Source: an uncultured Saprospiraceae bacterium (GTDB taxonomy: Bacteria; Bacteroidota; Bacteroidia; Chitinophagales; Saprospiraceae). Taken from it: a stretch of DNA of 64,000 nt. Of the stretch, positions 4,976 to 47,846 are shown one piece after another. The notes beneath the pieces were generated by a model. That model made no database searches. It worked only from the letters and a program-made list of their open reading frames with translations, and was not told where the DNA came from. The stretch lies in assembly GCA_905480605.1 (NCBI GenBank), contig CAJQRD010000002.1, positions 1 through 64,000 on the forward strand. Reading direction: 5' to 3'. The position numbers were made by a program, and so were the translations under genes. Numbering within the stretch: the first letter of the stretch is position 1; every line of letters begins with the position of its first letter.

Positions 4976-4979
4976 CTTC

Positions 4980-9845: not shown

Positions 9846-9872
9846 TAATATAAAAATTTGTATTTTTCAGAT

Positions 9873-11153: not shown

Positions 11154-11285
11154 ATTATAACTCATCTATACATTTACTAATTTCGAAATTTAACTTTGAA
11201 TATTTTCACCCTTCACATTAAAATGATTGTTGTTAATTTCAAATAATAAAAAATTACTACCTTAACCTGACAAATTAATACAAAC

Positions 11286-14354: not shown

Positions 14355-14398
14355 TATATTAGTAATAGCAAATTTTAATAGTCAATTTTAAAAAAATC

Positions 14399-14428
14399 AA
14401 AAGGAGGTATGATGCATACCTCCTTTTT
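14399..14428 (+). terminator. Strong intrinsic terminator after the Asp-box protein
   Basis: A perfect 13-bp stem: AAAAGGAGGTATG (14399-14411), ATG loop, CATACCTCCTTTT (14415-14427), continuing into a T tract. It is symmetric enough to work in both directions, so it may also end the decayed minus-strand gene at 14548. Confidence 0.9.
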
Positions 14429-14547
14429 ACTTTTTAAATATTCACTTAATTCAATGAATTTATTTATTCAAGATTCACCACCAAGTTTGTAAAAAATGCA
14501 ACTAGAATATTAATATAATTTAATAATAACTAAATACAAGCCTGTGG

Positions 14548-15102
14548 CTACCTCAACTCATTTGCTTGAGTTTCATAAAAGTGAAACATAACATCAAACC
14601 CACTGAAGTGTATCTTTTTATTATCATTCAGGACTTGATTCTTAGTATGAATCCATCTTGCCAAATCACGAACTTCCTGGGTATCGTAAACCCAATAAAC
14701 AGTTTGATCAATCACACCATTGAAATCACCGAGATCATTTAAAACAATATCATCAACTTTTAACGCGTCCCCGCTTGTAAACTTAAATACTATATTGTCA
14801 AAGTTTTTATTCTCAACTAAATTTAGAAATATTTTATCTTTCATTTGAAAGAATTCTGAAATTCCATATTTTCATTTACCCATTCCGACAAACTGTACAT
14901 TACCTAGATAATTAACAAGCGGCTCTAAATCATCAGACTCTAAATTATTAGGATTTAGGGTATCAAAGTTATGAGCATAAATTGAATTTTAATCATCTAC
15001 AACCAATTGTTCAGTATTACTTATTGTCCATTCAATTTTAGGGGCAGGTGTGACTTCTTATACCTTTGAACAGGAAAAAATACCAAATAAGACAAATTTC
15101 AA
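14548..15102 (-). pseudogene. Decayed erythromycin-esterase-like lipoprotein gene
   Basis: Read on the minus strand in one frame, the region 15102 to 14548 gives a lipoprotein-type leader (LKFVLFGIFSCSK, lipobox Cys), then the N-terminal part of an erythromycin-esterase/succinoglycan-biosynthesis-family protein. Family landmarks are FVGMGK then KYGISEFFQMKDKIF (the usual VGLGEATHGxxEFFxxKHR block), WVYDTQEVRDLARWI, and HFSGFDV. There are three in-frame stops: just after the leader, near DD, and in the LGEATHG block, where a stop replaces the catalytic-region Glu. The frame ends at 14548, about 200 residues short. No start ATG remains. A 98-residue ORF (14548-14844) survives by chance. It is clearly a pseudogene, and the ancestral enzyme's substrate is unknown. 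Confidence 0.8.
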
Positions 15103-15289
15103 AGACGTTATTCATTTAAATCTCAACATCAATAGAGTTATACCTAAAAATACAAATTCTATCAATTTTAACAGAATTATTTTAATGATTCAATTAATTA
15201 GTAAAAACAACACTATGTATAAAAAATGATATTACTATTGCATTAACAAAAAGAGATAAGTGTGTATAGTATTTAATTACAATTGGTTT

Positions 15290-15682
15290 ATGACAGAAAT
15301 TAAAGATAGAGAGGACATTGAAAAACTTGTAGACTCATTTTACAACAAGGCCACAATTGATTCTATTATTGGTCATATATTTCAAAACCATATGACAAAA
15401 ACACTTGAAAAACACAAGCCTATTATTTGTGATTTTTGGGAATCTGTATTATTAGATAATGGAAACTATAAGGGCAATCCTATAAAGAAACACATCGAAT
15501 TAAGTAAGAGGACACCACTTGGCAATTTTCACTTTAAACAGTGGTTCAAATTATGGGAAGAAACTGTAAACGAATTGTTTATCGGAGATATTGCAGATCA
15601 AGCAAAAGCCAAAGCTAATTTAATGAAAGAGCTTATGCTAATAAAAATAAGGCAAAGTGAGAATCCGAATTTTATCCAATAA
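15290..15682 (+). CDS. Group III truncated haemoglobin
   Basis: A small haem protein that binds O2 or NO; its role in Bacteroidota is unsettled. Beginning MTEIKDREDIEKLVDSFYNK, it has 130 residues, as usual for the trHb3 (P-type) group. The proximal-His F-helix segment is HIELSKRTPLGNFHF, preceded by the CD/E Phe and Trp residues (IFQNHM, FWESVLL) and followed by HFKQWFKLW. The GTG at 15260 would add ten unrelated residues, so the ATG at 15290 is preferred. It converges with the DUF389 gene across only 18 bp, with no terminator between them. Confidence 0.88.
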   Translation: MTEIKDREDIEKLVDSFYNKATIDSIIGHIFQNHMTKTLEKHKPIICDFWESVLLDNGNYKGNPIKKHIELSKRTPLGNFHFKQWFKLWEETVNELFIGDIADQAKAKANLMKELMLIKIRQSENPNFIQ

Positions 15683-15700
15683 AGTAAAATTGGGTATACG

Positions 15701-17110
15701 CTACTCCTGGATTATCTTTAAAGTATCTAAGCCATATTCTAACTTAAGAAATTCTTTCAACTGCTCTGTTTTCATATAAATTGGATTTCTCCATTTTACA
15801 ACTACCGTAGGAATTGCTCTTAAGTCATTTTCACCACTGGTATTATAATGCACCGTAGCCAACCCCAACTCTTTAACTTCCGGCATTAAGATCTGAAGTT
15901 TTTTATTGATACCTATAAACTTAAGACTGTCCCTCATTAAATTATCTTTATTGGATTTCAAATAGGCAACCAGCTCACTTTGCTTTTTCCGTTCATCCTT
16001 CATTTCATCCAATTGAACGTTAAGTTTATCTCCAACCTCTAAAATTTCTGATTCCAGTTGTTTGACTTTTTCCAATTTAATTTCAGTTGTGGGAATGATC
16101 TTTATAGACATATTCACAAGTCCTAAACTGTCAAGTGCCGACTCGTATTGATCTAGATTTTTATCATTAATAGCTTCACCATAAACCTTCAAAAGTAGAA
16201 GTTTTGATCCATCAGATTGCTCTCTTATTTTATAATCATCTAAGTATATTCTATTACTTCCAATATAATTATCAATAAAAATTTCTACTTGACTTTTTGC
16301 CGAATAATCACTGTAAACTTCGATAAAAATAAAAAAGCTAGGTATGATCATTATCAAACTAAAGATCCCTACGAAAATCATATTCTTACGTCTGTCACTT
16401 TTAGTTTCATAAACCTTGAAAGGAAATTTCATAACACGCAAAAGTACATAAGTTGCAAAAGCAACGAAGAAGGAATTTAAGAAGAAAAGATAAAAGGCCT
16501 TTAAAGCCAAATCATAATGTCCGTTAGCCAACCCAAAGCCTGTGACACAAAGTGGTGGCATCAACGCTGTAGCTATAGCCACACCTGGCATAGTGGTCGA
16601 GACATCTTTTCTTGCAATTGAAATTATACCTGCAATGCCTCCAAAGACAGCTATCAATACATCAAGGAAAGTAGGCGTTGTACGAGATTGTATTTCTTGC
16701 GTAAATTCATCCAAAGGCGTTAACCAAAAGTATACAGTAGACGATACAAGTGCGATTAAAATAGCAGCACCAAAATGCATCAGCGCATCATACAAGCCAT
16801 CTCTATCATTAATTGCAACAGAAGTCCCAATACCTAAAATTGGCGCCATAAGAGGAGAAATAAGCATTGCACCGATAATGACAGCTTGAGAATCTAAATT
16901 CAATCCAATTGATGCGATCATTATACTACACATCAGCATCCAAGCATTGGCGCCACCCATAGATTGCTTAGATTTTATTTCTCTGATTGCAGCATGTTTA
17001 TCAACACCATGATCTAAATGTATGAATTCATTAAACAGCTCAAAGAAGTATTTTTTTACATCAGTTAAGTTTATTTGTTTGCTGTCTGAATTGTTGTTAT
17101 CGTTTTCCAT
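15701..17110 (-). CDS. DUF389 family membrane protein
   Basis: Function unknown. Residues ~50-240 hold about six membrane helices with the DUF389 hallmarks: GGANAWMLMCSIMIASIGL, then DSQAVIIGAMLISPLMAPILGIG, and a later MPGVAIATALMPPLCVTGFGLA. These duplicated G-A-M-L-I-S-P and A-T-A-L-M-P-P segments suggest an inverted-repeat transporter-like fold. A further helix near residue 250 is followed by a soluble tail with a coiled coil (about 330-390, EKVKQLESEILEVGD). At 469 residues it is in the usual range for Bacteroidota members with a C-terminal extension. It lies 58 bp downstream of the patatin gene on the same strand, probably in one transcript. Confidence 0.85.
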   Translation of the reverse strand: MENDNNNSDSKQINLTDVKKYFFELFNEFIHLDHGVDKHAAIREIKSKQSMGGANAWMLMCSIMIASIGLNLDSQAVIIGAMLISPLMAPILGIGTSVAINDRDGLYDALMHFGAAILIALVSSTVYFWLTPLDEFTQEIQSRTTPTFLDVLIAVFGGIAGIISIARKDVSTTMPGVAIATALMPPLCVTGFGLANGHYDLALKAFYLFFLNSFFVAFATYVLLRVMKFPFKVYETKSDRRKNMIFVGIFSLIMIIPSFFIFIEVYSDYSAKSQVEIFIDNYIGSNRIYLDDYKIREQSDGSKLLLLKVYGEAINDKNLDQYESALDSLGLVNMSIKIIPTTEIKLEKVKQLESEILEVGDKLNVQLDEMKDERKKQSELVAYLKSNKDNLMRDSLKFIGINKKLQILMPEVKELGLATVHYNTSGENDLRAIPTVVVKWRNPIYMKTEQLKEFLKLEYGLDTLKIIQE

Positions 17111-17168
17111 AACTTAATTTAAATCATCTTAATGATAATAAAATAAAAAAATCATTAATGTAATTGAA

Positions 17169-18026
17169 TTATTCAATTTGCTGTATTATTGCTTGCTGTG
17201 TTATTGCATTAAAAACCTCGACAGTATCCTTATAACCCAATTGATATTTATCTTGGAATGAGGGAGATCTAAATCCAAGCGGATTACCTAGTTTGGAAGT
17301 AGGTGAAATTATCAGTTCTTCATCAAAACTTATATTTGTTTGTTTAATGGCAGGAATATAATAAGGGACATGCATAACCTTAATGGTAATCACCAAATCA
17401 AAATGTTTATCACTTAAATTTGTGTAATAAGGTTGATTATCACCAATACCACCATCAGCATACTTGTCATCATTTATAAAAACAGGTTTAAAAAAAGGAA
17501 GTCGAGAACTGGCCATTACATAATCAACTAATTTGCCCTCTTCTATAGACTTAAAATCATGATATTCCTGCCTTAACTTACTTACATTATAAGTTGTAAA
17601 GATAAGTTCCCTTTTCGATTGTCTAATTATCGATTCATCCAAATACTCATCAAAGAAAGCGATAAATGGATTGATGTTTACACCATCTTCCAACAAAGAA
17701 GCCTTTGCCAATTTGTAGTAGTAATTTAAGGCATTTTGATCAATACCTTGAAATATTTCTCGTTTTTTTATTTCTGTCCATAATTCAAAGCATTCACTCT
17801 CAGAGTATTGAGATATTGCTGCAGCATTTATGGACCCAATTGAACAACCAGAAATTGAAACGACGTTATCCCATAAAGGTGTTTCTTGAATTGCTTTGAT
17901 GGCTCCAATTTGGTATACACCTCTGGTTCCGCCGCCAGTTAAAACCAATTTAATACGTTTGTATTCTGAAAGTTCTTTTTCCAATATAATTATTTTATTA
18001 ATCTGATTTACCTGGTGCCATCCCAC
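17169..18026 (-). CDS. Patatin-like phospholipase
   Basis: A Ser-Asp dyad lipid acyl hydrolase. The oxyanion loop is LTGGGTRGVYQIGAI, the nucleophile elbow is GCSIG (GxSxG, about residues 60-64), and the catalytic Asp is in YADGGIGDNQP (DGG). No membrane segment or signal peptide is seen, so it is cytosolic or membrane-peripheral. The start is uncertain: GTG at 18026 overlaps the prfB 3' end by 19 bp, while a TTG at about 17984 begins closer to the conserved domain. Overlap with prfB implies translational coupling. 285 residues is compact but complete for bacterial patatins. Confidence 0.88.
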   Translation of the reverse strand: MGWHQVNQINKIIILEKELSEYKRIKLVLTGGGTRGVYQIGAIKAIQETPLWDNVVSISGCSIGSINAAAISQYSESECFELWTEIKKREIFQGIDQNALNYYYKLAKASLLEDGVNINPFIAFFDEYLDESIIRQSKRELIFTTYNVSKLRQEYHDFKSIEEGKLVDYVMASSRLPFFKPVFINDDKYADGGIGDNQPYYTNLSDKHFDLVITIKVMHVPYYIPAIKQTNISFDEELIISPTSKLGNPLGFRSPSFQDKYQLGYKDTVEVFNAITQQAIIQQIE

Positions 18027-19091
18027 ATTAAAAAGGCTTTCAAAAAGCCTTCTATATCACCTGAAAGAACAGCATCTGTATTTCTGTTTTCAAAATTTGT
18101 TCTGTGATCTTTCACACGCCTGTCATCAAGTACATATGATCTGATTTGACTACCCCATTCATTTTTCATTTTGGTGGCTTCAGTAGCGCTTTTGGCTACA
18201 CGCTTTTCTTCGAGGGCTCTTTCATACAATCGAGATTTAAGCATTTCAACTGCCTTTTCTCTATTCATATGTTGGGATCTTTCTGCTTGACATTCAACAA
18301 CAACTCCAGAAGGTAAATGTCGCACACGTACTGCTGACTCTGTCTTATTAACGTGTTGTCCACCAGCGCCACTGGCCCTAAAAGTATCCCAGTCCAAATC
18401 TGCTGGATTTACATCAATCTCAATACTATTATCGACTACAGGATGCACAAACACTGAGGCGAACGATGTCATTCTTTTTCCTTGCGAATTAAATGGGCTT
18501 ACCCTTACCAAACGATGAACCCCATTTTCTCCCTTCATCATTCCATAAGCATACTCCCCTCCGATTTCTATTTCAACAGATTTTACTCCAGCTACATCAC
18601 CGTTAACCCTATTCAGTTCTTTGACCTTATACCCTGCTTTCTCGCCATACATAACATACATTCTATATAGCATTTCTGCCCAATCGCATGCTTCCGTACC
18701 CCCAGCTCCTGCATTAATTTCTAAAAGGCAAGATAGTACATCCTCTTCTTGGTCTAATGTGGATCTAAATTCAGTGTCATCGACAATTTCTAATGCCTTG
18801 AGATAATGGGCATCAACTTCTTCTTCAGAAGATTCACCTTCAGATTGAAACTCGACAAAAATTTCGAGTTCCTCCATCGCATCTTTAATGCCTTTAAATT
18901 TGTCAACCCATAATTTATTTTCACGCAATTCTTTCATTACAGTTTGCGCTAGTTTTGGATCATTCCAAAACTCAGGATCATTAGTTCGTTGTTCTTTGTC
19001 TCTTATTACATTCAATCGTTGATCGACGTCAAAGATAGCTCCTTAACGACGCCACACGATCTTGTAAAGCTTTATGTTGCTCTATAGTCAT
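18008..19091 (-). CDS. prfB: Peptide chain release factor 2, with programmed +1 frameshift
   Basis: Releases peptides at UGA/UAA. The gene begins with ATG at 19091 (MTIEQHKALQ). After 20 codons it reaches CTT TGA C (stop at 19031-19029) preceded by AGGAGC, the classical RF2 slippery site; reading resumes one base on as Asp-Val-Asp-Gln-Arg-Leu-Asn. The second part runs to 18008. Domain signs are the RF2 specificity tripeptide region SPFNSQGKRMTSFASVFV, the GGQ loop in RASGAGGQHVNKTESAVR, and the C-terminal helices. Total length is about 360 residues, typical. The FKBP gene ends 12 bp upstream, so it is co-transcribed. Low RF2 levels should raise frameshifting and so RF2 output. Confidence 0.96.
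19028..19043 (-). promoter_or_regulatory. prfB: RF2 autoregulatory +1 frameshift site
   Basis: On the minus strand, AGGAGC TAT CTT TGA C: an internal Shine-Dalgarno-like element (19043-19038), the slippery CTT codon (19034-19032), the in-frame TGA (19031-19029) and the following C. Spacing matches the well-studied enterobacterial site. Confidence 0.93.
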
Positions 19092-24766: not shown

Positions 24767-27700
24767 GTGAAAAGACTTTTATCTACATTATTAATTCTAA
24801 CAGCTTTCTCCACCAACCTTATTTCTCAATGTGATTCAGGTTCAGAACCAGAATGTGAATGTGGTACCGCAGAATTGCTTTGTTCGATCAACGAACTAGA
24901 TGGCTTTAGTTTTAGTATGTCAGATTTTCAACATCCAGGTGATGGACCTAACCCACTTTGTAATGGTGATGGGGTTCCTAATAATCCCACTTGGTTTTCA
25001 TTTATTGCATGGTGTGAAGAATTAACACTTACTGTGGAGTTATCAAATTGCACCTCAGTAGCTGGCGTATCTGGTGCTCAAGTCGCTGTTTATGAAGATT
25101 GTAGTTCATTTTCTCCAATAGATTGTATTACTGACGATTGTTTTAATGAAGATGACAAAGTTCTCGATTTGGATGGCTTAGTAATTGGTGAGGTTTACCA
25201 CTTTATGATAGATGGTTGCCTTGGTTCAGCTTGTGATGTTGACATATCTGTAGATGGTGCATGTACTGAAGAGATTGAAGATTGGACTGATGGGATTACA
25301 GGGCCGACTGAAGCATGTAGTGGTGATGTGATTGATTACAGCACCGATGATTTGGATGGTGCTACATCATATGTATGGACTATTGAAGGAGTTGAAGAAG
25401 CCGTTACTTCGGATCCAAGTAATGAAATTACCTGGGGCTCTGAAGGGACATATGAACTATGTGTGGATGCTTTTAATGAATGCCTTGACGTAAGTGAAGA
25501 TCCCGCAGAATACTGTATTACAGTTACAATTTTAGAACCCGATGCTGGAACAATAACTGCAACACCAAATCCATTATGTCCTGGAGAAACTAGCACATTT
25601 GAAGTCACAGCTTTCAATGATGACTCTGAATTGGAGGAAGTAATTATTGTAGTTGATCCTAATGGTGAAGTTTTGGAAGTCATCATAAGTGGAAGCACTG
25701 GATCAGTCACATATGATGAATGTGGAGATGTCACAATTTACAGCTTAAATTATGCAGATTTTGAAATGCTAAGCATTCCGTCTGTAGGTGGCACTTATAG
25801 CGGAACAGATTGTTCAAATCAATGTTGTGATGAAACATCTTTGGTTATTAGTTTTGAAGACGATGAAGATCCTGTCTTTACAAACCCACCCGCTGACTTA
25901 ACTTTGATTTGTTTTGACATAGTTCCTCCAATGGAAGATTTAGATGTGACTGACAATTGTGCAAGTGATGCCTTGGTTACTGGCGTTGAATCTGGAACAG
26001 CAGATCTTTGTGATGGCGGTGTTATTGAAAGAGAGTGGACATTTTCAGATGACTGTGGAAATGAAATTACTCATTTACAGACAATCACAATCGACCCCAT
26101 TGAACTTCCAGAATATATAAGTCCACCGGGCGATGAAGAAATTATCTGTTCTGGTACAATTCCACCGCCAATAGATTTAATGTACACTAACAATGGTGCT
26201 GGCGGTTGTTTGATCGAGGGCCTCGTTATTCCAGTTGTAAACGGAGTTTTTAGTATTTGTGGTTCAACAATTACTTATGAATGGGACTTCACAGATATAT
26301 GCGGAAATAACTTAAATCATGTACAAACAATAGAGATTCTTCCTGCTGAAGAGCCAGAGTTTTTGAACCCACCAGCCAGTATTGTTATCGAATGTGATGG
26401 CGTAATTCCAAATGCCATTGATTTAGAATATTCAAATGGTGATTCTGGGACTTGCCTAGATCAGGGATTTATCACACCAACTATAGATGGGAACTTCGAG
26501 CAATGTGGAACGACAATAACGTATGAATGGGATTATACTGATGCTTGTGGATTCAATATTAACCATATTCAAACGATAGAAATTCTTCCTGCGATTGAAG
26601 CATCGTTTATCAACCCACCACCTGATATTACATTAACCTGTGATGAATACAATAGCTACACTTTTGATGATTTAGATTACTCAAACAGTCAACCATCTCC
26701 ATGTGAAATTATGGGAACTGTTTCTCCAGTTATAAATGATAACACTACTGAATGCGGAGGCACCGTTGAAGCATTTTATGAATTTGAAGATGATTGTCAA
26801 CGCACCATCGATTATACCCAAATCATTACAGTAGAACCACCAGCCGCAGCAGATTTCCTATCTATGCCGTTAGACATAACTGTAGATTGTGATGCTATTC
26901 CAGATCCTGCAGATCCACTAGCCTATTCTAACGGAGAAGTTGGACTTTGCTTAGTTGAAGGCATTTTTGACCCAACTATTGAAGAAGATATCGATGAGTG
27001 TGGTGGTACGATAACCAATACTTGGGAGTATGAAGATGATTGTAATCCACCCTTGGAGTATGTACAAACAATAACTGTTAATCCAGCTCCAGAACCAATG
27101 TTTGAAAGTTCACCTTCCGACTTAGATTTAACATGTGAAGAATTTAATCAATTTGAACCTGAAATATTATCTTATACAAATAACGAAGGCGGCATTTGCT
27201 TAATAGAAGGAGAAGTTGAAGCAACAAGTATTGGTGTCATAACAGAATGTGGAGGAGCTATTATTTTTGAATGGGAATTTACTGATTTCTGTGGAAGAAC
27301 CATTTTTGAAAATCAAATTATAAATGTAAATCCAGCTCCAGAGTCTGAGTTTATAAATGTTCCTTCAGACATGACAGTTGATTGCTCGGAAGCAAGTGAA
27401 GATTTACCATTTTTAGAATATGACAATGACGCTGATGGTACGTGTCTCATTACTGGCTTTGTAGAAGCCATTCCTTCAGGAGTCGTCAATGAATGTGGCG
27501 GAATATTGATTTATGACTGGACTTTTACTGATAATTGCGGAAGGCAAATTACAGCATCTCAAGAGGTAACCTTCCTACCAGCAGATGAACCAGAATTTAT
27601 TGATCCGCCTGAAGATGTTACTGTTGATTGTGATGATGATATTCCAGATGAAGAACTTTTGGAATATGATAACGACTTAGATTCTCCTTGTGAAATAAAT

Positions 27701-30700
27701 GGTGAGGTCAATCCCACTGTAGAAGTAGATGATAACATTTATACCTACACTTGGACATTTACGAATGCCTGTACCGGAAATACTATTGAACATATACAAA
27801 TAATTGAAAAAAGATTGCCTGTTGAATTTGAAGAAGATGAATTTGAATTTCAAATTTGCATTGGAGTTGAGTTTGATTTAAGTACACTTACTATTGTAGA
27901 TATAAACGATACCGATCCTACTATTACATTCCATGATGAATTGCCAGCTGATAGTGGCAATGAAATTGATCCAATAGTTATTTTAGAAGGTGAAGAACAG
28001 GAATTTTACATCTTGGGTCTAAATGATTTTGATTGTTTTGATGTTGCAACAATTGTAGGAATTGCAGATGAATTATCTCAGGCTGGAGAAGATATAGTAG
28101 ACGAATTTTGTATAGGAACAGAGTTATTAGACCTATATTCATTTCTTGAATCACCAGCTGACTTAGATGGAGAATTCACTTTGATTGATGGTCCAAGCGA
28201 TCTTGATTTTGCTTTTGCTGATGAGATAAATGTTTCTAATGCAGAACCAGGCATTTATATATTCAACTATTTTGTTGAATCCCAAAACTCTTGCCCAAGT
28301 GATGAATCAGAAATGACGATTGAATTGTTAGAACCTGTGTTAATCGAATTACTTTCAATTGCATGTAGCCCTGATGGTTTATCATACACCGTTACTATTT
28401 CAAACAATAATTATGATTTAGATATTTCTGATGGCACAATAAGCAGTCAAGCCCCAGATGAGGTTACAATTATAAATATTCCTATTACCCAAGATTTAGA
28501 AATTGAAGTAGAAGACAATTCTACCAGATGTGAAGCAGAATATACGTTCTTACATCCAGACTGTTCTTGTCCTAGTGTTGCTGCACCAAATGTCGTTTCT
28601 AATTTACAAATATGTGAAGGAGAGCCAATAGTATCTTTAGAAGTTACTGTTGATATTGATGTCATTGCAAACTGGTTTGACACACCTGTAGGCGGTAATC
28701 TTTTACAAGCTAATAGTTTATCTTATTTGCCTTCTGTTAGTGCCCCTGGTATTTATACTTTTTATGTTGAAGGAGAAAGTACAATTCAAGCAGGTTGTGT
28801 AAGTGCCGTACGTACACCTATTCAATTGGAGATTATTCCTAAACCCATTTTGTCAGACATTTCAATAAATATTTGTGATGACAATCAAACAGGTTTGGTA
28901 ATTATATTTGCTTCAGATATTGAAAATATTCTATTTGGCAACATACCCAATCTTACTGCAAACTATTATTCCTCACTTGATAATCTTAACAATCAATCCA
29001 ATCCTATTATATTTCCGTTTATTACTACTGAAATCGATACGCAAACTATATATTATTCAGCTGCTAATTCAGCCAATTGTGTCACTGAGGGAAGTATAAT
29101 TATAAATGCACAGGCAATTCCAATAATTAGTGCATTGTTCAATGATGAAACTTGTCTAGGCGCTGGCGATGGATTTATTGACATTGACGTTATTACACCA
29201 AATCCTCCGCATCAATTGGTTTATAATGGAGATACTTTGACTTCAAATTTGATTTCAAACCTTGGTGCAGGAACATATAATATAGTAGCCATTGATTCGC
29301 TTGGATGTTCAAATTATAGCGAAGTTATAATAAACAGTGGAATTGAATTGGCATTTGAATCATTAGAAGTCATTTGCAATGATAACAATACAAGTTCTTA
29401 TGCCAATGATGATTTTTATACAGTAAGTTTTATAGTTCAAAACTCCAACAATGTTAGTGGCAATTACAATCTCTCAATACTAAATCAAGGCATATCTGAA
29501 GAATATGCATATGGTGAAATTGTAAACCTTGAATTGACCGCAGATAATATATTGACAACTATCATTGCTACTGATTTGGTTTTAAATTGTTTTGTTGAGC
29601 AGAGCATCGGTGAACTAACTCCTTGTTCTTCTGATTGTCTATTGTCTTTAAATATTATAAGTTCAATTTGCTTTGATAATGGAACCCCATTTGATCCTAA
29701 CGACGATCTTTATGAAATCACTGTCAATGTTTCAGCAATAAATGGAAACCCAAACAATACATATAATTTGTTGGTTGACAATGTTCCTGTATCAACATTT
29801 GACTATGACGAAGAGGCTACATTTACATTGCCAGCAGAAAACCCACCTCCAGCTCTATTGTTTGTAGATAGTCAAAATAGCAATTGCTTTGTTTCTTCAC
29901 TTATATCTACACTACCCCCATGTTCCGATTCATGTTTAATTGAAGCAGAAATTGTTGATATCACATGCTCGGATGCTGGCACTTTGCAAGATGAATTAGA
30001 TGATTTATTCACATATACAATTGTTATCACGGGTACAAATGCTTCTTTAGTATATATTGAAACTATTTCTTCGACAACATATAATTATGGTGAGATTATT
30101 ACTGTCTCAGATAATCTAATCACATCAGGAGATATAAATTTAGATTTTGCTGACTCCGAAGATAGTGATTGTATGACATCTCTAACCATTACTCCCCCAG
30201 CTCCATGTTCTCAACCTTGTACAATCATAATGAATGATTTAACAATTTCTGATTGTGATGACAATGGAACCAATATGGACGAATCAGATGATTTTTACAA
30301 TGTAAATTTTTCTATTGAAAGTACTGAAGGAGAAGTATCGAATGTTCTCGTTACCGATAACCTTGGCAATACATATGGTCCTTTCAATTATGACCAAAAT
30401 ATATTTATAGGTCCATTCCCTGCTAATGGCATGGATGTTTTTCTTACAATTTCAGATCCACTAAATGGTACATGTTTTCTAGAACAGGCCATCAATCAAG
30501 TTTCATGTTCTTCTGCTTGTGCAATAGATATTGAAATCGTTTCTATTGAATGTACAAACAATGGGACACAAACAACCAATGATGATGATCTATTTAATGT
30601 AGAATTTATTGTAACTGGAGGTAATGTTTCTGTCAGTGGATATATTACCAACCTTGGTGTCAATGGCAATTATTCAGAAAGTAATACACTTAATGATTTA

Positions 30701-33208
30701 CCAATTTCGTCAGGAAGTATCTCATTAGAAGTTACTGATTTTGAAAATTCAGATTGCTCCTCTATAGTTCAAATTGACCCTCCATCTCCGTGTTCTCAAC
30801 CTTGTAACATAGCATTGGCTTACATTGATATTTTGGATTGTGACGACAATACTACCAATACAGATGAATCAGATGATTTTTATTCAGTAGCCTTCAAAGT
30901 AAGAGCTCTTGATGGTGATGTTTCAAATTTTATAATCACAGATAACTTAGGTAATAATTTTGGTCCTTTTGAATACGAAACAGATATTGAATTAGGTCCA
31001 TTCGATGCCAATGGTGCTGAGATCATTTTGACATTCACTGACCCTACCAATGGAACCTGCTTTGTTCAAGAAACAATTTCGCAGGACGCCTGTTCGAATG
31101 CTTGTCAAATTAATGCTCAAATAGTGAGTATCACCTGTAACGACAATGGAACAACAAATACAAATGATGATGATGTTTTCAATGCAACAATAATAGTTAC
31201 AGGGATAAACATTGGCTCACAATTCACAATTGACCCCCTATCTTTAAATGCCAATTACGATGAAGAGATCGAAACAGGACCTTTCCAAATATCAAATGGA
31301 AACATATCGCTGACAATTTATGATCAAACTGCAGGACCAGTTGAATGTTTGACTTCAATTGAAATTTTCGCTCCAGCAGCTTGTTCTGATCCTTGTGAGG
31401 TTGAACTTGCAAGTATTGAAATATCAGATTGTGATGACAATGGAACAGGAAACACTTCTGATGATGACTTTTATTCTCTAAGCTTTGAAGTAAGCGGTAT
31501 AAATGGTCAAGGGGCAACATTTGATATTCGAGATGATCTAGGCAACGTATATGGTCCTTTCATTTACAACACAATCAGTCTTATAGACCAAATTATTGCA
31601 GATGGTTCAGAAACAACTTATACTCTTGAGGACTCAGTAAATGGAGCTTGTGCCTTAAATTTTATAGCAAGCCAAAATGCCTGTTCGGACTGTAATAGAA
31701 GTATTGAAATATCAGCCTCAAATACAATTTTAGACTGTAATCAAATACCAATACAAATTGAAGTAAATTCAGACATATCAGAAATTGTTTCTGTAGAGTG
31801 GACTGGTCCAAATTTTAATAATTCAAACTTTAATGTACAGGTTATAGAAGCTGGTACATATAATATTATCGCAACTTTTATTGATGGCTGTACGGCAAGT
31901 GAAGAAGTAACTATTACATTGGATGAAGATACACCAATTGCCATAGTCAATGACGATTCTGTAATTAACTGTGACGTTCCAACAGCGACTCTCGATGGCA
32001 GTCAAAGTATAATGACATCTAATACTATAATCTCATGGGCAGACGAAAACGGAAATGAAATTTCTTCAGATTTAATAACCACTGTGTCAACAGGAGGGGT
32101 CTATACTTTGACTCTAACTGACGTCATTAGCAATTGCACTTCTAATCCAGGAATAGTAAATGTGAGAGTCTTTGACAATGTTCCGACTGCCATTATTTTA
32201 GCTAACCCTGGAAATGTGTTTGATTGTTTTATCGAATCAATAAGTCTGAGTACAGAACAAGAAGCTAATGTTATTTACAGTTGGTTGATAAATAACCAAT
32301 TGGTTGATGATCTAACAACCACAATCACAGACATTGCAGATGTAGCTTTGATTGCACTTGACACATTATCTCAATGTGAAACGCAAACTTCAATTGAGAT
32401 TAATGACTTGACAGAATTTCCTATTATTTTATTAAATGATTACAATTCAATCGGATGTAATGGAGAAGAAACATGTATTGAAGTAACCAGTCTACAATCA
32501 ATAGAACCTTATGAATATAAATGGTTTGATGAAGACGGCAATTTAATTTTAGAAGATGAAGCTATTTTATGTACGAATATTCCAGGTAATTATTCTATAG
32601 AATTAACAGATCCAATTAATGGGTGTGTCAATGAAAGTACATTTACTATTATATCTTCAGTCTCTCCTGAAATTAATCTTCAGCCGGAAATTGTATTGGA
32701 ACTGGCTACTAATTTCCAATTACAACCTATAGTTAATATCAGTACAGAAAATATCGAATTAATAAGTTGGCAAGGCGATGTACTACTAAGTTGTACTGAT
32801 TGTTTGGATCCTTTTATATTGGACTATAAAGATGGTGATATTGTTCGTCTTACAATTATCTCAATTGATGGGTGTGAAGAAACTGTTGAAACACGCATCA
32901 ATATCATTGAGAACTTACCAGAGGCAAAATATTACATTCCAAATGTTTTCTCAATTTCTGATTTTGACAATAGGTTTACTATTTATACAAATGGAGAAAT
33001 AGACATAATTGACAACTTGTATATATATGACAGATGGGGAGAATTAATTTTTAAAAATAAAAACTTTGAACCCAACAATTCAAGTATTGGCTGGGATGGT
33101 ACTTTTAACAATAGAGCTGTAGAAGAAGGTGTCTATATCTATTTGTTTAAATTCTTAATTAATGGAAGAGAGGAAGTTGTAGCAGGAGATATTACTTTGT
33201 TGAGGTAG
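24767..33208 (+). CDS. Giant repetitive secreted protein with T9SS type B (CHU_C) C-terminus
   Basis: A 2813-residue cell-surface or secreted protein, likely an adhesin or gliding-type surface filament. It has a GTG start with signal peptide KRLLSTLLILTAFSTNLISQ. Residues ~20-170 form a globular Cys-rich domain. Next come a PKD-like region (about 175-365), eight HYR-like repeats of ~82 residues (366-1015; each with NPP, DxTxxC, Y(S/T)N, ECGGxxxxxWxFxDxC, QxIxVxPA) and further Ig-like modules. Eight ~97-residue repeats follow (1525-2309), each opening with a CDDNGTxxxxDDDFY loop and closing with CSxxC. The end (about 2722-2813) is a CHU_C/type B sorting domain: YYIPNVFS, IYDRWGELIF, WDGTFNN, GVYIYLFKF. 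Composition is very acidic and nearly Lys-free until the end, which fits extracellular Ca2+ binding. Confidence 0.9.
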   Translation: MKRLLSTLLILTAFSTNLISQCDSGSEPECECGTAELLCSINELDGFSFSMSDFQHPGDGPNPLCNGDGVPNNPTWFSFIAWCEELTLTVELSNCTSVAGVSGAQVAVYEDCSSFSPIDCITDDCFNEDDKVLDLDGLVIGEVYHFMIDGCLGSACDVDISVDGACTEEIEDWTDGITGPTEACSGDVIDYSTDDLDGATSYVWTIEGVEEAVTSDPSNEITWGSEGTYELCVDAFNECLDVSEDPAEYCITVTILEPDAGTITATPNPLCPGETSTFEVTAFNDDSELEEVIIVVDPNGEVLEVIISGSTGSVTYDECGDVTIYSLNYADFEMLSIPSVGGTYSGTDCSNQCCDETSLVISFEDDEDPVFTNPPADLTLICFDIVPPMEDLDVTDNCASDALVTGVESGTADLCDGGVIEREWTFSDDCGNEITHLQTITIDPIELPEYISPPGDEEIICSGTIPPPIDLMYTNNGAGGCLIEGLVIPVVNGVFSICGSTITYEWDFTDICGNNLNHVQTIEILPAEEPEFLNPPASIVIECDGVIPNAIDLEYSNGDSGTCLDQGFITPTIDGNFEQCGTTITYEWDYTDACGFNINHIQTIEILPAIEASFINPPPDITLTCDEYNSYTFDDLDYSNSQPSPCEIMGTVSPVINDNTTECGGTVEAFYEFEDDCQRTIDYTQIITVEPPAAADFLSMPLDITVDCDAIPDPADPLAYSNGEVGLCLVEGIFDPTIEEDIDECGGTITNTWEYEDDCNPPLEYVQTITVNPAPEPMFESSPSDLDLTCEEFNQFEPEILSYTNNEGGICLIEGEVEATSIGVITECGGAIIFEWEFTDFCGRTIFENQIINVNPAPESEFINVPSDMTVDCSEASEDLPFLEYDNDADGTCLITGFVEAIPSGVVNECGGILIYDWTFTDNCGRQITASQEVTFLPADEPEFIDPPEDVTVDCDDDIPDEELLEYDNDLDSPCEINGEVNPTVEVDDNIYTYTWTFTNACTGNTIEHIQIIEKRLPVEFEEDEFEFQICIGVEFDLSTLTIVDINDTDPTITFHDELPADSGNEIDPIVILEGEEQEFYILGLNDFDCFDVATIVGIADELSQAGEDIVDEFCIGTELLDLYSFLESPADLDGEFTLIDGPSDLDFAFADEINVSNAEPGIYIFNYFVESQNSCPSDESEMTIELLEPVLIELLSIACSPDGLSYTVTISNNNYDLDISDGTISSQAPDEVTIINIPITQDLEIEVEDNSTRCEAEYTFLHPDCSCPSVAAPNVVSNLQICEGEPIVSLEVTVDIDVIANWFDTPVGGNLLQANSLSYLPSVSAPGIYTFYVEGESTIQAGCVSAVRTPIQLEIIPKPILSDISINICDDNQTGLVIIFASDIENILFGNIPNLTANYYSSLDNLNNQSNPIIFPFITTEIDTQTIYYSAANSANCVTEGSIIINAQAIPIISALFNDETCLGAGDGFIDIDVITPNPPHQLVYNGDTLTSNLISNLGAGTYNIVAIDSLGCSNYSEVIINSGIELAFESLEVICNDNNTSSYANDDFYTVSFIVQNSNNVSGNYNLSILNQGISEEYAYGEIVNLELTADNILTTIIATDLVLNCFVEQSIGELTPCSSDCLLSLNIISSICFDNGTPFDPNDDLYEITVNVSAINGNPNNTYNLLVDNVPVSTFDYDEEATFTLPAENPPPALLFVDSQNSNCFVSSLISTLPPCSDSCLIEAEIVDITCSDAGTLQDELDDLFTYTIVITGTNASLVYIETISSTTYNYGEIITVSDNLITSGDINLDFADSEDSDCMTSLTITPPAPCSQPCTIIMNDLTISDCDDNGTNMDESDDFYNVNFSIESTEGEVSNVLVTDNLGNTYGPFNYDQNIFIGPFPANGMDVFLTISDPLNGTCFLEQAINQVSCSSACAIDIEIVSIECTNNGTQTTNDDDLFNVEFIVTGGNVSVSGYITNLGVNGNYSESNTLNDLPISSGSISLEVTDFENSDCSSIVQIDPPSPCSQPCNIALAYIDILDCDDNTTNTDESDDFYSVAFKVRALDGDVSNFIITDNLGNNFGPFEYETDIELGPFDANGAEIILTFTDPTNGTCFVQETISQDACSNACQINAQIVSITCNDNGTTNTNDDDVFNATIIVTGINIGSQFTIDPLSLNANYDEEIETGPFQISNGNISLTIYDQTAGPVECLTSIEIFAPAACSDPCEVELASIEISDCDDNGTGNTSDDDFYSLSFEVSGINGQGATFDIRDDLGNVYGPFIYNTISLIDQIIADGSETTYTLEDSVNGACALNFIASQNACSDCNRSIEISASNTILDCNQIPIQIEVNSDISEIVSVEWTGPNFNNSNFNVQVIEAGTYNIIATFIDGCTASEEVTITLDEDTPIAIVNDDSVINCDVPTATLDGSQSIMTSNTIISWADENGNEISSDLITTVSTGGVYTLTLTDVISNCTSNPGIVNVRVFDNVPTAIILANPGNVFDCFIESISLSTEQEANVIYSWLINNQLVDDLTTTITDIADVALIALDTLSQCETQTSIEINDLTEFPIILLNDYNSIGCNGEETCIEVTSLQSIEPYEYKWFDEDGNLILEDEAILCTNIPGNYSIELTDPINGCVNESTFTIISSVSPEINLQPEIVLELATNFQLQPIVNISTENIELISWQGDVLLSCTDCLDPFILDYKDGDIVRLTIISIDGCEETVETRINIIENLPEAKYYIPNVFSISDFDNRFTIYTNGEIDIIDNLYIYDRWGELIFKNKNFEPNNSSIGWDGTFNNRAVEEGVYIYLFKFLINGREEVVAGDITLLR

Positions 33209-35007: not shown

Positions 35008-35036
35008 TAGAGCATTGAAGCATTAGAGAATTGAAT
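35008..35036. repeat. GCATTGAAGCATTAGA octamer-type repeat
   Basis: TAGAGCATTGAAGCATTAGAG in the 46-bp gap between two convergent genes. It belongs to the same family as the arrays before trpC and trpF. Confidence 0.65.
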
Positions 35037-38000
35037 TACTCCCCTTTCAGCTTACCTAAGTCCTCTGTAAAAGCTTTTTTCAACTCCAACATAGAACCAA
35101 ATTCTTTTCGGTAGTTAAGACCAACACCAAATTTTTGCTCATTCCTTCCTTCAATGTCTTTATCCCATTTACCATATGCCCGCAATTTTAATTTACGATC
35201 AGCAGTCAGATAATACTCCAAAACAAAATCATGAATAAAATAATTTTCAACACTTAGGTTGTTAATATAACTTGTACCATAGTCAAAACCCCATTTGTCA
35301 TTTTGGAATCTAGGTTTGAAATGAACTTCGATTTCATCTGGCAAATAATTTTGGCTATCGGGGCTGCTGTCTAACAAATCTGTAGATTTAGAAACTCCAA
35401 ATTCAAAGTCCAAACCAGAAATAAATCCATTATCAGTCAATGCTTCTTGAAGAAATCCAGATAAAAAATTTGAGAGCTGACTTGAAAGCATTTCAGTCAA
35501 AGTATTATATGTGGTACCGACCACACTTCGGGATAAATTACTGTTACCTCCTGATGATGATGAAGGTAAGAAACTTCTAAACATTACTAAGCCAGCTACT
35601 TGTTCATTAAGTTCAGCATCATTTTGACGCAACGTTCTCATTTTACTATCAGCAAAAGAACGCAACTCCCCTTGAAGTTCAGGAAATTCCATATCAAAAG
35701 TAATAATCGGTTTATAGAGTGTCCCTCCAATCATCAATTTCAAATCAACAACAGTACGTTTCTTTGCATCTTGTGCTACTTGAGGTCTGTCCTGCAAATA
35801 CTCCGCAAGGAATACATTTACAGGTACACTCAAATCATCATAGGATGCTTTGATATTGAGATTTGCATTTATTGGATCTCCAGTCCAAGTTATTTGTCCA
35901 CCAGGCTTTACTTTGAATGGCTTCGAAACTACATTAAATGCAGTAAATAAATAATCACCACTAGCGACTTCATAGCCACCATAAATATTAAAACTTCCAT
36001 CTCGGGAAATAGTAATTCTCATATTACCATCTCCATTTCCTTTTATAATATCATTCGTACGTTCATCAAAAATCATATTGACTTGAGCGTCTTGTGTCAA
36101 CGTCAAGTTCATTTCTACATCTACACCTTCTAACTTAATTTCAGCCTCAACAACTTCTTCAACTTTTTTACGTTTAATATCTTCTCGTTTGAAAAATGTG
36201 ATAAAATCCTGACTTACATCTGACTGTGTATCTTCTATTGGGATGTTAAGAATAGTACCTGTTCCTGTAACTGCATTAATGATAATATCAGTACTAGAAA
36301 AAGGTCCAAAGTAATCAATATTCATTTGACCTAAACCCGTGCCGTAGTAAGATGGATTGTCAATCTTATCAGTATCCAAAGCCAAGAAATATTCTGATTT
36401 CATATTCAGATCAGTACTAAATTCACCAAACAAATAATGATTCAAACCCCCAGTCATAATGGCTTGATTCCCCAGCCTATCAAATAAACGAACATTTGTC
36501 AAATCAATAAAGCGCTCAGAAAAAGTAAACGTCTCAGAACCCAATTGAATCAAGTTTCCTAAATAATCTATTTTAGTTTTTCCATTTATCACGGTTGCAG
36601 ATCCATCTAATTTTATATCATTCAAAGAACCAAACATTTGTGCATCGATATTGGCAAAACCTGCAGTCTCTGAAATACCATCATCAATGATAAATTCAAA
36701 AGTACTCATGACCAGATTTCTTGCTTTAACTGTACCGTCAAGGGCTTTAGATTCTTTGTCCAGACTTGCATTCACCAACAAAAGCAATTCATCTTCTACC
36801 CTATTAAGGTTGATAGTAGCATTTGTCTTTCCTGAATCATCATCAAGCCTAATTCCCAATGCACCATAATCAACACCGTTAAGTGTAAATTCAGGTATCT
36901 GAATATCCGCCACAATTTGTGGTTTGTCAAATATATTTGCGACACGTCCAAATACCGTTCCTTCGCCTGCAAAATCAATCTTATTATAATTTATTATTCC
37001 ATTGATAAGAAGAAAGTCAAAATTATTTAAATTTAACTCTATGCCTTTATTGTTGTAGTCTTCTATAAAAATTGTTCTGTATCCATCAGATAAAACAAAG
37101 TCACTGATGTCAATAAATTTATTGCCATATACAATTCTGTTGGCGTTATCAATTTCCCAATCCTTACTGAACATTTGAAGGTTTTGATTAATTAAATTGA
37201 TTACCAAATTCTCTCCCTCTGGTACAATTTTAATTCCTATATCAATTGAACCAACTGAATCTACAACATTACTGGTTTTAATTTGAATAAGTACCTCATC
37301 TTTCTTCATTTTTGATATAATCTCCAATGGTTCATAAGACTTGCCAGATGTTGCAATCTCTTCTAAATTTAATAGTAAGTTCGAAACATTATTATCATTT
37401 GTCAAATCAAGTCCAACATTATTAAAAACATAGTCCTTGTAAAAAGAAGAATCAATTGAAAAGTGTGTTTCTAGTTTTTGATTTAATAAATCGGAATCAC
37501 CATAAATACTAAAACCTTTAAATTGAAGATCGTTTAAGTTTGCCAATTCCAAATAGTCTTTGGTATCAAAAACATCTATCTTATAGTTGAAATCCTGAGC
37601 ATTGGTTAAATTTTGCTTCAAACTAACAATGTTCATTTTTGATGCCCATAACGGGTGATTATTATAAATATAATTTGAAACGGCTCCTCCTAATTGCGCA
37701 AAATCAAAAGTACCATCTAATGATGCATTTAATATATCAGATGTAAGCAATAGGTTACGTGACCCTGTTTGTCCCGGGGCAGAACTTAAATACAATTTAC
37801 CAAAATCAAAAGGTTTATCCTTAAAGACAACATCTAAATTTTTTACATCGACAGAACCAATTAAATCGGTCAAAGACGAGCCTTCAACGCTCATGTCGAA
37901 ATTACCTTGAATTTTAGAATAATCCTTTGACAGGTTTAATTTGATTAAATCAATATTCGTGATTTCAGAAGTAAAGTCAGATTTAATATAATTATCGGTA

Positions 38001-39868
38001 ATGTTTATTTGTCCTGAGAAGTCTACATCTATATTAGGATCTTTAATCGTAAAGTCCCCGTCAAATAAATTCTCCTCTAAAATACCTTCCAAGACAACAT
38101 TACTGTAGCTATAACCCCTAAAATCAAATCTTTCCACTTCAGCAATTAGATCTGTTTTAACCGTTTCTAAAGTCAAACCTTTTCCATTCTCTATCTTTGC
38201 TTTCACAGTCGCAAAACCCAAATTAGGGTTATCTGTCCATTCACTCAAATTGAAATCATTCAAGAAAACTTCTCCACTATACTTCGCTTCATTCACTCCT
38301 CCTCGTGTGTCTAACCTTGTATCTAGTATAACACTTCCAAGTCGACTTTCAAGATTTCCATAAATTACAAAATCATTGAAAAAACCTTCTATGTCTCCAG
38401 TAAACGAAATCGGATCCAGCTTGTAAAATTGCTCTGGTGGTTTAAACCCCGGTATTATCCGTTTTAAATTATTTAATGAAGTGTTTAATTCATCAACGTA
38501 TAAATTGATAAGTGCCGCAGAAGAATTTGTTAAATTATTGGTACTTAAAGAACCTGAGAGCTCAATTAGATTATCGATTGATAAAAACATATTATCTGCA
38601 TAAAGATCATCTACTGTGCCTTGAAGTTTTCCGGTTAATCTAAATTTCCTTTTACCATTCAACTTAAAAAAGGGGCTGTTTTTCAGGTCGGGAAAAAAGT
38701 AAATCAAATCTTGAAAAGTCACTTCAGATCCTGTCATATCAGCATCAATTTCAATCGCCTGAGCAAAAGAACCAAAGTCACTTAACTTGTTATATTTAAA
38801 TTCTATATAGTCACTAATGGTACTTTTCTGGGTATTTAGATCAAGCCCCGACAACAATAATTGAGTATCATTAAAACGCAAACTGTCTATGGCTAATTTT
38901 TTAATTTCAAAGCCTTTTTTTTCTTTCAAACTTAATCGATTAATTCTGCCGACGATATCGTTATTGCCATTTACTTCAAAATTCTGAGATACCAGATAAA
39001 GGTCAGTTACTTCGATATCGTTCACATCCAAACTGCTTTCCTTATTCTTTGCCTTTGACAAATCATGTTTCTTAAAGAAACCTTCATTTATTTCCAGATT
39101 TTCAACAGCCAGATAGAAATTACTTTCTGAAGGGACATTTGGCTCTTCTTTATCTTCTACAGGTACGCTTTTATCTTTTTTAACTTTCGCCAAACCGTTA
39201 TACATTCTAAAGACCGGTCTAAATAAAGATAAACTTTCAATTATAATTGAATCTTGTGCTAGGTTAATTTCTTTAACTCCAACATGACCTTCATTCAAGG
39301 AAATAAAAATACTACTACTATCTTGTACATTTTCAAATCCGATTTGTAAGTTTCTTAAGTTTAAATTTCGGATATCTAAAATTATTGGGCTTCCTTCTGT
39401 TTTTGTTGAATCACCCTCTGACACAAAGTTTTTAAGGAATTGCTTTAAATTATCTTCTGAGCTATTCGCTTTTTTTATAATTTTAAACTTAGCATCAAAT
39501 AAGTTTATATCTTCAATATGCGCTTCACTGTTGATTAAGCTTAATATATTTTCCTTTAAGGTGGATGATGCTTCGCCAATAAATGCCAATGTATCAGTTG
39601 GATTATTAGGACTAGAAATATAAAGATCTTTTAAAAGCAATCCCCTGAAAATAGAAAAATCAAGATCTCCTACACTGACTGTGCTTTGGGTTTTTTCGGA
39701 TAAATTTTTACAAATTCTACCTGCAATCCAGTTTTGGACAAACCCAATGTGAAGTATCAGAGGTGAAAGAATAATCAATAGCAAAAGCAAAAGTAAAATC
39801 CTTTTCAGATACTTTGACCATTTGTTCCCTTTTGGAAGCACTTCAGCTTTTTGTTCCTCTTTACTCAA
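35036..39868 (-). CDS. tamB: TamB-like translocation and assembly module protein
   Basis: A long periplasm-spanning bridge protein (AsmA/TamB group), thought to help outer-membrane protein or phospholipid transport. An N-terminal cytoplasmic stub and one membrane helix (about 22-45, RILLLLLLLIILSPLILHIG) precede ~1200 residues of repetitive beta-strand sequence. The C-terminal DUF490/TamB domain contains AFNVVSKPFKVKPGGQITWTGDP, LMIGGTLYKPIITFDMEFP and the final barrel-like strands (WGFDYGTSYINN, KFGVGLNYRKEFG). Bacteroidota versions are about 1500-1700 residues, so 1610 is normal. No TamA/BamA-like partner is next to it in this window. folP lies 100 bp upstream on the same strand. Confidence 0.88.
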   Translation of the reverse strand: MSKEEQKAEVLPKGNKWSKYLKRILLLLLLLIILSPLILHIGFVQNWIAGRICKNLSEKTQSTVSVGDLDFSIFRGLLLKDLYISSPNNPTDTLAFIGEASSTLKENILSLINSEAHIEDINLFDAKFKIIKKANSSEDNLKQFLKNFVSEGDSTKTEGSPIILDIRNLNLRNLQIGFENVQDSSSIFISLNEGHVGVKEINLAQDSIIIESLSLFRPVFRMYNGLAKVKKDKSVPVEDKEEPNVPSESNFYLAVENLEINEGFFKKHDLSKAKNKESSLDVNDIEVTDLYLVSQNFEVNGNNDIVGRINRLSLKEKKGFEIKKLAIDSLRFNDTQLLLSGLDLNTQKSTISDYIEFKYNKLSDFGSFAQAIEIDADMTGSEVTFQDLIYFFPDLKNSPFFKLNGKRKFRLTGKLQGTVDDLYADNMFLSIDNLIELSGSLSTNNLTNSSAALINLYVDELNTSLNNLKRIIPGFKPPEQFYKLDPISFTGDIEGFFNDFVIYGNLESRLGSVILDTRLDTRGGVNEAKYSGEVFLNDFNLSEWTDNPNLGFATVKAKIENGKGLTLETVKTDLIAEVERFDFRGYSYSNVVLEGILEENLFDGDFTIKDPNIDVDFSGQINITDNYIKSDFTSEITNIDLIKLNLSKDYSKIQGNFDMSVEGSSLTDLIGSVDVKNLDVVFKDKPFDFGKLYLSSAPGQTGSRNLLLTSDILNASLDGTFDFAQLGGAVSNYIYNNHPLWASKMNIVSLKQNLTNAQDFNYKIDVFDTKDYLELANLNDLQFKGFSIYGDSDLLNQKLETHFSIDSSFYKDYVFNNVGLDLTNDNNVSNLLLNLEEIATSGKSYEPLEIISKMKKDEVLIQIKTSNVVDSVGSIDIGIKIVPEGENLVINLINQNLQMFSKDWEIDNANRIVYGNKFIDISDFVLSDGYRTIFIEDYNNKGIELNLNNFDFLLINGIINYNKIDFAGEGTVFGRVANIFDKPQIVADIQIPEFTLNGVDYGALGIRLDDDSGKTNATINLNRVEDELLLLVNASLDKESKALDGTVKARNLVMSTFEFIIDDGISETAGFANIDAQMFGSLNDIKLDGSATVINGKTKIDYLGNLIQLGSETFTFSERFIDLTNVRLFDRLGNQAIMTGGLNHYLFGEFSTDLNMKSEYFLALDTDKIDNPSYYGTGLGQMNIDYFGPFSSTDIIINAVTGTGTILNIPIEDTQSDVSQDFITFFKREDIKRKKVEEVVEAEIKLEGVDVEMNLTLTQDAQVNMIFDERTNDIIKGNGDGNMRITISRDGSFNIYGGYEVASGDYLFTAFNVVSKPFKVKPGGQITWTGDPINANLNIKASYDDLSVPVNVFLAEYLQDRPQVAQDAKKRTVVDLKLMIGGTLYKPIITFDMEFPELQGELRSFADSKMRTLRQNDAELNEQVAGLVMFRSFLPSSSSGGNSNLSRSVVGTTYNTLTEMLSSQLSNFLSGFLQEALTDNGFISGLDFEFGVSKSTDLLDSSPDSQNYLPDEIEVHFKPRFQNDKWGFDYGTSYINNLSVENYFIHDFVLEYYLTADRKLKLRAYGKWDKDIEGRNEQKFGVGLNYRKEFGSMLELKKAFTEDLGKLKGE

Positions 39869-47652: not shown

Positions 47653-47846
47653 GTAGCACATTATTCATTTACTTTAAATTTGAAAAGTTCAACTCACTAT
47701 TCATAGAATGTTATTCTTAGTCAAATTAGATTTCGATCCAATTGTTGAGGTTATTCTGTTAATGATTCATTAAATTTGTGTTTACCTCGTCTAATTGATT
47801 GTTAAAATGCGTTATTGACTTTGGATTATCTATACAAATACAACAA

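Follow-up and report, generated by a model that had tools for sequence, protein, structure and literature searches.

A widespread, unnamed family of acidic four-cysteine modules with a predicted FN3-like fold in a giant protein of an uncultured Saprospiraceae bacterium

Adhesin stalks locked by isopeptide bonds exist. In region II (RII) of the giant adhesin MpAFP (PMC4083281), tandem Ig-like repeats of ~100 residues, which are identical copies of one another, form a rod stiffened by Ca2+ bound to acidic residues between the repeats. Type-B proteins of the type IX secretion system (T9SS), SprB being one of them, bind PorP-like proteins at the cell surface (PMC9143113), and ‘orphan’ type-B cargos with an identified shuttle are described in PMC12618676. 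Here we describe a giant protein encoded in a 64,000-nucleotide stretch of DNA from an uncultured Saprospiraceae bacterium (hereafter, the window). On balance, we think it probable that this protein is an orphan type-B T9SS surface adhesin, with a stalk that would include very acidic modules stapled by disulphides and perhaps made stiffer by Ca2+.

The protein is encoded by a single open frame (Table 1), and a 100% match to its 2813 residues was found on contig C2 of its own genome. Because the flanking ORFs are MutS2-like (on the opposite strand) and chorismate-synthase-like, both named from their translations, no obvious operon surrounds it. An earlier sequence-only reading had claimed a giant protein built from two different eight-copy repeat families, and this architecture was confirmed: eight HYR_4C-type modules are followed, after Ig-like modules, by eight acidic modules of ~97 residues spanning residues 1525–2309. 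Immediately upstream of the acidic array is a stretch judged SprB-like by eye, for which Pfam gave no match. The further Ig/PKD-like stretch scored 17.7 bits with Pfam DUF7933, under the cut-off, and the C-terminal domain scored 25.3 bits with the NCBIfam type-B sorting model TIGR04131, whose cut-off of 35 it does not reach. None of the domains identified is a ligand-binding one. A paralogue of 1598 residues, encoded on contig C14 of the same genome, has domains collinear with those of the window protein, among them four acidic modules and what BLAST indicates to be about two HYR modules; proteins of other genera show a largely collinear architecture with different array sizes. The segment at residues 171–363, comprising the PKD_6 domain and the part preceding the HYR array, occurs in 25 of 100 genomes of the family (own included, E <= 1e-8), not always in giant ORFs.

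Table 1. Features of the giant protein and their coordinates in the window
Feature	Residues	Coordinates	Strand	Basis
Giant secreted protein ORF		24767..33208	+	Single open frame, 2813 aa, GTG start
Probable Sec signal peptide	1-21	24767..24829	+	By eye; similar start in paralogue
PKD_6 domain	176-241	25292..25489	+	Pfam, 27.8 bits (cut-off 25)
Eight HYR_4C-type modules	364-1020	25856..27826	+	Pfam HYR_4C and alignment of copies
Ig_7 (CHU_C-associated) domain	1272-1358	28580..28840	+	Pfam, 41.9 bits (over cut-off)
SprB-like domain	about 1454-1523	29126..29335	+	By eye: C...DG...G-Y...D..GC pattern
Acidic module 1, type B1, 3 Cys		29339..29638	+	Profile and tree
Acidic module 2, type B2		29639..29935	+	Profile and tree
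Acidic module 3, type A		29936..30220	+	Profile and tree
Acidic module 4, type D		30221..30520	+	Profile and tree
Acidic module 5, type A		30521..30805	+	Profile and tree; predicted structure of 5-6
Acidic module 6, type D		30806..31105	+	Profile and tree; predicted structure
Acidic module 7, type A		31106..31396	+	Profile and tree; predicted structure
Acidic module 8, type D, array end CSDC		31397..31693	+	Profile and tree
Further Ig/PKD-like stretch		31694..32920	+	Segment BLAST: collinear with paralogue and with other-genus proteins
CHU_C type IX secretion signal domain	2724-2806	32936..33184	+	Pfam, 33.6 bits (cut-off 27)

Several other ORFs of the window and of the same genome were recorded alongside. 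A 1022-residue protein (11286–14354, + strand) gave Sortilin-Vps10, PSII_BNR, and BNR matches over cut-off, and a 1610-residue protein (35036–39868, − strand), perhaps an AsmA-like envelope protein, gave a sole match, to DUF748 at its N-terminus and under cut-off. A 615-residue ORF with SprB repeats (47799–49646, + strand; Pfam SprB over cut-off at 48828–48911) is also present, and SprB is matched 72 times in the genome as a whole at E <= 0.01. On contig C23 (positions 1–19000, locus L010), several adjacent large ORFs have ends that resemble the C-terminal domain of the window protein, or have its N-terminal domain.

The HYR array matches Pfam HYR_4C (PF23237) with 98 bits (E 3.7e-28, cut-off 27) in seven stretches, the best one of the seven being residues 373–442. 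Its eight copies of ~82 residues, with boundaries set by hand, are 30–55% identical. Mean identity is 42.1% at lag 1 and 35.4% at lag 2, and 40068 of the 40320 possible orderings reach the observed value for alternation, of which there is thus none in this array; the copies are most alike between neighbors, which fits duplication of single modules.

A profile made from the eight acidic copies recovers each of them at E <= 3.3e-28, which is circular for the window, and four more modules in the paralogue at E <= 2.6e-16, which is not. The acidic modules gave no usable sequence match in Pfam, NCBIfam, or the PDB. Scanned singly against Pfam at E up to 10, the eight copies yielded nothing better than E 0.05, with Ig_GEX2_N (0.052) and Big_8 (0.1) matched by one copy each; the pair of modules 5–6 reached 14.9 bits with Ig_GEX2_N (cut-off 27). 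The best PDB sequence matches, to phycoerythrin alpha chains (E 0.18 and 0.2), were taken as chance. Among the module pairs of ten relatives, one (from L098) exceeded the cut-off of DUF7601 (PF24547) with 30.6 bits over about 50 residues (cut-off 27), and two more scored 20.8 and 22.4 bits; DUF7601 was absent from the matches for the window copies or the window pair. Apart from this partial match, the libraries searched hold no named domain for the module, as the sequence-only reading had supposed, and no literature on it was found in open-licence PMC text, which is weak evidence of novelty.

The acidic module is nevertheless a widespread family, unnamed in the curated libraries searched. It was detected in at least 63 of the 100 genomes sampled from the same family (window profile), at least 6 of 295 genomes of a class sample, and at least 8 of 395 genomes of a phylum sample (broader profile, E <= 1e-5), the own genome being included in each; these counts are lower bounds because only part of the candidates was scored in some genomes. 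The window profile found none in the one other genome of the same genus. A DNA pattern for DNGTPxDxxDDx[FY] matched at least 117 stretches. Among the matches listed, the profile finds modules in 70 of the 117 stretches and in none of the other 47; 67 of those 70 are labelled Bacteroidota, several loci coming from a single genome, and the remaining three are weak or odd (Verrucomicrobiales, 4e-10; Phycisphaerae, 1e-3; Pirellulaceae, 2e-4). Also among the matches listed, 45 of the 67 comprise 35 labelled Saprospiraceae or Saprospirales and 10 from Lewinella, Neolewinella, Phaeodactylibacter, and Flavilitoribacter, all of which NCBI places in Saprospirales. No viral contig matched the acidic-loop motif. 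The longest array seen has 37 modules, and an open frame of 13103 residues (L079) carries the same modules.

The modules had been thought to close with CSxxC, and 443 of 553 internal modules do end in this way. The second Cys of the motif, however, opens the next module, because first-in-array modules carry it and array ends often lose it. In 86 of 115 first-in-array modules, a Cys (denoted Ca) lies 10–13 residues upstream of the next cysteine, C1. For 40 of these 86, there is no module hit within 130 residues and no Cys within 8 residues upstream, and many of the 40 come after an acidic DEDDGDG stretch of another domain; 43 have a further Cys at most 8 residues upstream and 13 a module hit at most 130 residues upstream, and these may follow a preceding, undetected module. 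The first modules of L142 and L140 come after signal-peptide-like sequence. At the other end, where the following domain does not begin with Cys, the module has often retained only the first member of the Cys pair (for example in L092, L060, and L066). The pair taken as the closing motif of one module is therefore two cysteines in two successive modules, and the true start of window modules 2–8 is one codon before the coordinates in Table 1, at the Cys. We also considered CSxC as a mark of the array end and dropped it: terminal modules have CSxC in only 19 of 97 cases (CSxxC, 9; CxC, 8; other, 61), mostly before one type of next domain, and the second Cys is better placed within that domain.

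With the boundary moved, the modules follow a four-Cys rule. Counted over modules with an adjacent Ca-bearing successor and with C1 found by regular expression (22 modules dropped for an unmatched C1, module 5 of L047 among them, 9 of these 22 lying at a frame edge), the 500 modules with Ca and C1 contain four Cys in 483 cases, six in 12, five in 4, and three in 1, an even number (4 or 6) thus being found in 495. The 34 modules without Ca have three Cys in 30 cases, two in 2 (module 1 of L195 and a truncated row of L070), and five in 2. Window module 1 (29339–29638, + strand) lacks the opening Cys and has three Cys, an odd number, like the first modules of this protein type. Some of the six-Cys modules (in L133, L185, L163, and L129) gain an additional pair, with one Cys beside the conserved Trp and the other after the FG-loop Asp.

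Structure prediction with AlphaFold2 gave high-confidence models for modules 5–6 (aligned with 70 other pairs from the window and relatives; pLDDT 94.9, pTM 0.71) and for module 7 alone (with 65 others; pLDDT 95.4, pTM 0.83). The module is predicted to be a seven-stranded FN3/Ig-like β-sandwich, the strands of module 7 comprising residues 2–12, 24–33, 39–43, 47–50, 54–61, 67–73, and 82–87. A Foldseek search with the predicted models gave nothing at E <= 1e-3. In VIA-align, module 6 was led by the FN3 domain of growth hormone receptor (Z 8.6, 90 residues, 2.6 Å), and modules 5–6 matched FN3 domain pairs over about 145–165 residues (Z 7–8). For module 7 the best Z was 7.6, a level that the tool calls common; monobody and other FN3 chains were frequent (Z up to 7.5, 70–78 residues), and Brr2 and β-glucuronidase domains were also among the matches. 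YEATS and TRAP domains in the fold search were taken as generic β-sandwich matches. The strand list and the VIA-align matches, with middling Z, agree with the A-B-C-C′-E-F-G sandwich of FN3.

These models bear directly on the kinship with TSP3 or calcium-blade repeats proposed in the sequence-only reading. The loop CDDNGTxxxxDDDFY does look like the loops of those repeats and is highly conserved; in TSP3 and the calcium blade, the fold is made around bound Ca2+ and has no β-sandwich core. The two confident models are FN3/Ig-like sandwiches (pLDDT 95), no TSP3-type profile matched the protein at E up to 1 or the eight copies at E up to 10, and there is just one such loop per ~97 residues. We therefore give hardly any credence to the modules being coreless Ca2+-binding repeats of the TSP3 or calcium-blade type.

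The predicted fold also suggests how the four cysteines may be paired. Along the chain, the module would run from Ca through strand A to C1, then from the acidic loop (DNGTxxDxxDD) through five strands to C2, and would end with strand G and C3. In the FN3 topology, the N-terminus and the FG loop are at one pole, and the A–B loop and the C-terminus at the other; Ca would therefore be near C2, C1 near C3, and the acidic A–B loop where the following module is joined on. We thus propose that the disulphides Ca–C2 at the top pole and C1–C3 at the bottom pole staple the first strand to the last. Two double losses point in the same direction: module 1 of L195 lacks both Ca and C2, and module 5 of L047 lacks C1 and C3 and keeps Ca and C2. 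Other losses misfit the proposed pairs. Of the 29 first-in-array modules without Ca (one with masked upstream sequence), 28 keep C2, so that C2 does not need Ca as its partner; in about a dozen last-in-array modules, ten of which precede a CPxD start taken as HYR-like, C1 is kept and the C3 column holds no Cys; and module 4 of L047 has lost C1 and kept C3. Pairing from Cys co-occurrence across 689 modules was rejected as evidence, as it is confounded by truncated or misaligned hits (largest phi 0.47, for C2–C3, owed mostly to such hits), and only the two inspected double losses were used from it.

The acidic D/N loop noticed at first sight is real. Among the 689 modules, positions 13, 19, 22, and 23 of the loop are D, N, or E in 92, 89, 98, and 98%, respectively, and so is FG-loop position 76, preceding C2, in 93%; all five positions are mostly Asp. 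Such strong conservation makes Ca2+ binding by the loop plausible. The acidity could instead be a general trait of acid-rich exoproteins, with loops that bind no specific ion: the whole module is acidic, beyond the loop alone, with 13.8 D/E against 0.8 K/R on average (n = 689), and the eight window modules have 127 D/E and 3 K/R in total. Asp22 and Asp23 (97%) and Asp76 (92%) are, however, far more conserved than other acidic columns outside the loop, the next of which reaches 54%. We regard general acidity as a serious contender, albeit a rather unlikely one, and retain Ca2+ binding at the loop as a plausible reading.

Alternatively, the acidic module might be a divergent form of the SprB repeat, the repeat of a gliding adhesin, and no family of its own. 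SprB repeats occur in the same genome and presumably share the secretion route, the SprB-like stretch precedes the array, and a ...D..C motif is found near the end of both. Profile comparison with hhalign (15 SprB repeats cut by regular expression, against 144 modules) aligned no more than 20 columns, locally (probability 3%, P 0.015), and Pfam SprB was not among the matches for the eight copies, which makes a SprB origin improbable. Homology of the acidic array to the HYR copies was likewise rejected, as there is no profile similarity between them (P 0.25).

Across all eight acidic copies, mean identity rises from 29.7% between neighbors (lag 1) to 39.1% between copies two apart (lag 2), a difference reached by 1136 of 40320 orderings. 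The alternation comes from copies 3–8 only, in which pairs of the same parity are 37% or more identical (mean 43.5, n = 6; 40–43% among copies 3, 5, and 7, and 37–54% among 4, 6, and 8) and pairs of different parity at most 32% (mean 26.8, n = 9). Copies 1 and 2, with 21% and 30% identity to copies 3 and 4, show none. A tree built on 60 modules of 11 sources (modules of at least 85 residues, arrays of three or more; three of the nine modules of G363, by choice) contains clades A (17 rows, 100/98) and D (10 rows, 99/95), a clade of first modules, B1 (11 rows, 97/97), and a weak group of second modules (8 rows, 89/67). Odd placements are module 1 of the paralogue, outside B1; the second modules of G340, one inside B1 and the other outside both groups; and module 2 of G296, outside. 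Window modules 3, 5, and 7 and modules 4, 6, and 8 fall into separate clades, A and D, each shared with other genera, which is firmer evidence of the alternation than the ordering of six copies; the window array reads B1-B2-(A-D)x3. With modules assigned from their position and their membership in clades A and D, the paralogue, G345, G327, and G377 each show the order B1-B2-A-D one time and G340 shows it twice. Alternation and duplication of a two-module unit, both claimed for the whole array in the sequence-only reading, therefore stand for copies 3–8, where the periodicity is kept in alignment and tree, and fail for copies 1 and 2.

Chance has to be weighed as another source of the alternation. 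The ordering test on copies 3–8 is weak with six copies (38 of 720), copies 1 and 2 do not alternate, window modules 3, 5, and 7 form no clade of their own, which also counts against a simple late tripling, and a lag-2 excess at p < 0.05 is missing from 35 of 48 arrays. The excess is present in 13 of these 48 non-redundant arrays of at least five modules, the window's included, where 2.4 are expected (one-sided, uncorrected p), and in 7 at p < 0.01; the arrays are not independent because some share a genome or contig, such as L098 with L152. Against chance, clades A and D are separate and are shared with single A-D pairs elsewhere, and window modules 4 and 6 group together (98/90). Window module 3 groups with the A module of the paralogue (97/85) and module 8 with its D module (88/73), and these groupings, with that of 4 and 6, are as expected for units copied inside a conserved frame. 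Chance thus appears highly improbable as the source of the alternation, and duplication of A-D units is preferred. In G359, a B-A pair has been multiplied, with modules 3, 5, 7, 9, and 11 in one clade (100/99) and modules 4, 6, 8, 10, and 12 in a second (99/94). In two long arrays (L065 and L064, with 27 and 37 modules), identity peaks at lag 5 (61.7 and 56.1; lags 1–5 computed), which hints at a five-module duplication unit.

As to secretion, the CHU_C domain, taken together with the account of type-B proteins in PMC9143113, suggests type-B export by the T9SS and a PorP-like protein as surface anchor. PorP_SprF is matched 13 times in the genome, once with internal stops, and none of these matches is on contigs C2 or C14; with no such match on its own contig C2, the window protein would be an orphan cargo too. 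The giant cargo most likely sits on the cell surface and acts as a long adhesin, in which the HYR and acidic arrays would together make up the stalk. If both disulphides join the first and last strands of each acidic module, a pulling force is proposed to bypass the fold. The acidic A–B loop, at the bottom pole beside the linker, would face the acidic FG loop of the next module, and Ca2+ at this loop junction could stiffen the link. The array would grow as units, each of one module or several, are duplicated between end modules that are conserved and specific to their position. Tentatively, and with somewhat less than even confidence, we propose an undescribed FN3-like family in which two-pole disulphide staples and Ca2+ clamps at the junctions make force-bypassing rods, lengthened by unit copying.

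With the module in so many genomes of the family and no entry in the curated libraries searched, many giant exoproteins of that family are left without a domain label. The corrected boundary and the four-Cys rule make it possible to build a proper domain model and to express a single module, and the type-specific tree illustrates one way in which such arrays grow. If the reading of staples and Ca2+ is true, the module would be a disulphide counterpart to the Ca2+-stiffened or isopeptide-locked stalks of adhesins.

Compared with known systems, the acidic modules are like FN3/Ig-like domains in having seven predicted strands with FN3-type spacing, a head-to-tail tandem arrangement, and a length of ~97 residues, and unlike them in having four conserved Cys and an acidic A–B loop; no curated Pfam model of the FN3/Ig kind matched the window copies or the pair at E below 0.03. 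HYR_4C is likewise a tandem module with four Cys, present in the same protein. SprB-type gliding adhesins (PF13573) are also tandem-domain, type-B T9SS surface proteins of Bacteroidota, whereas the acidic module is not detectably a SprB repeat. The closest functional precedent, by analogy and with no homology claimed, is the RII stalk of MpAFP (PMC4083281), from which the acidic modules differ in diverging from one another and in carrying four Cys.
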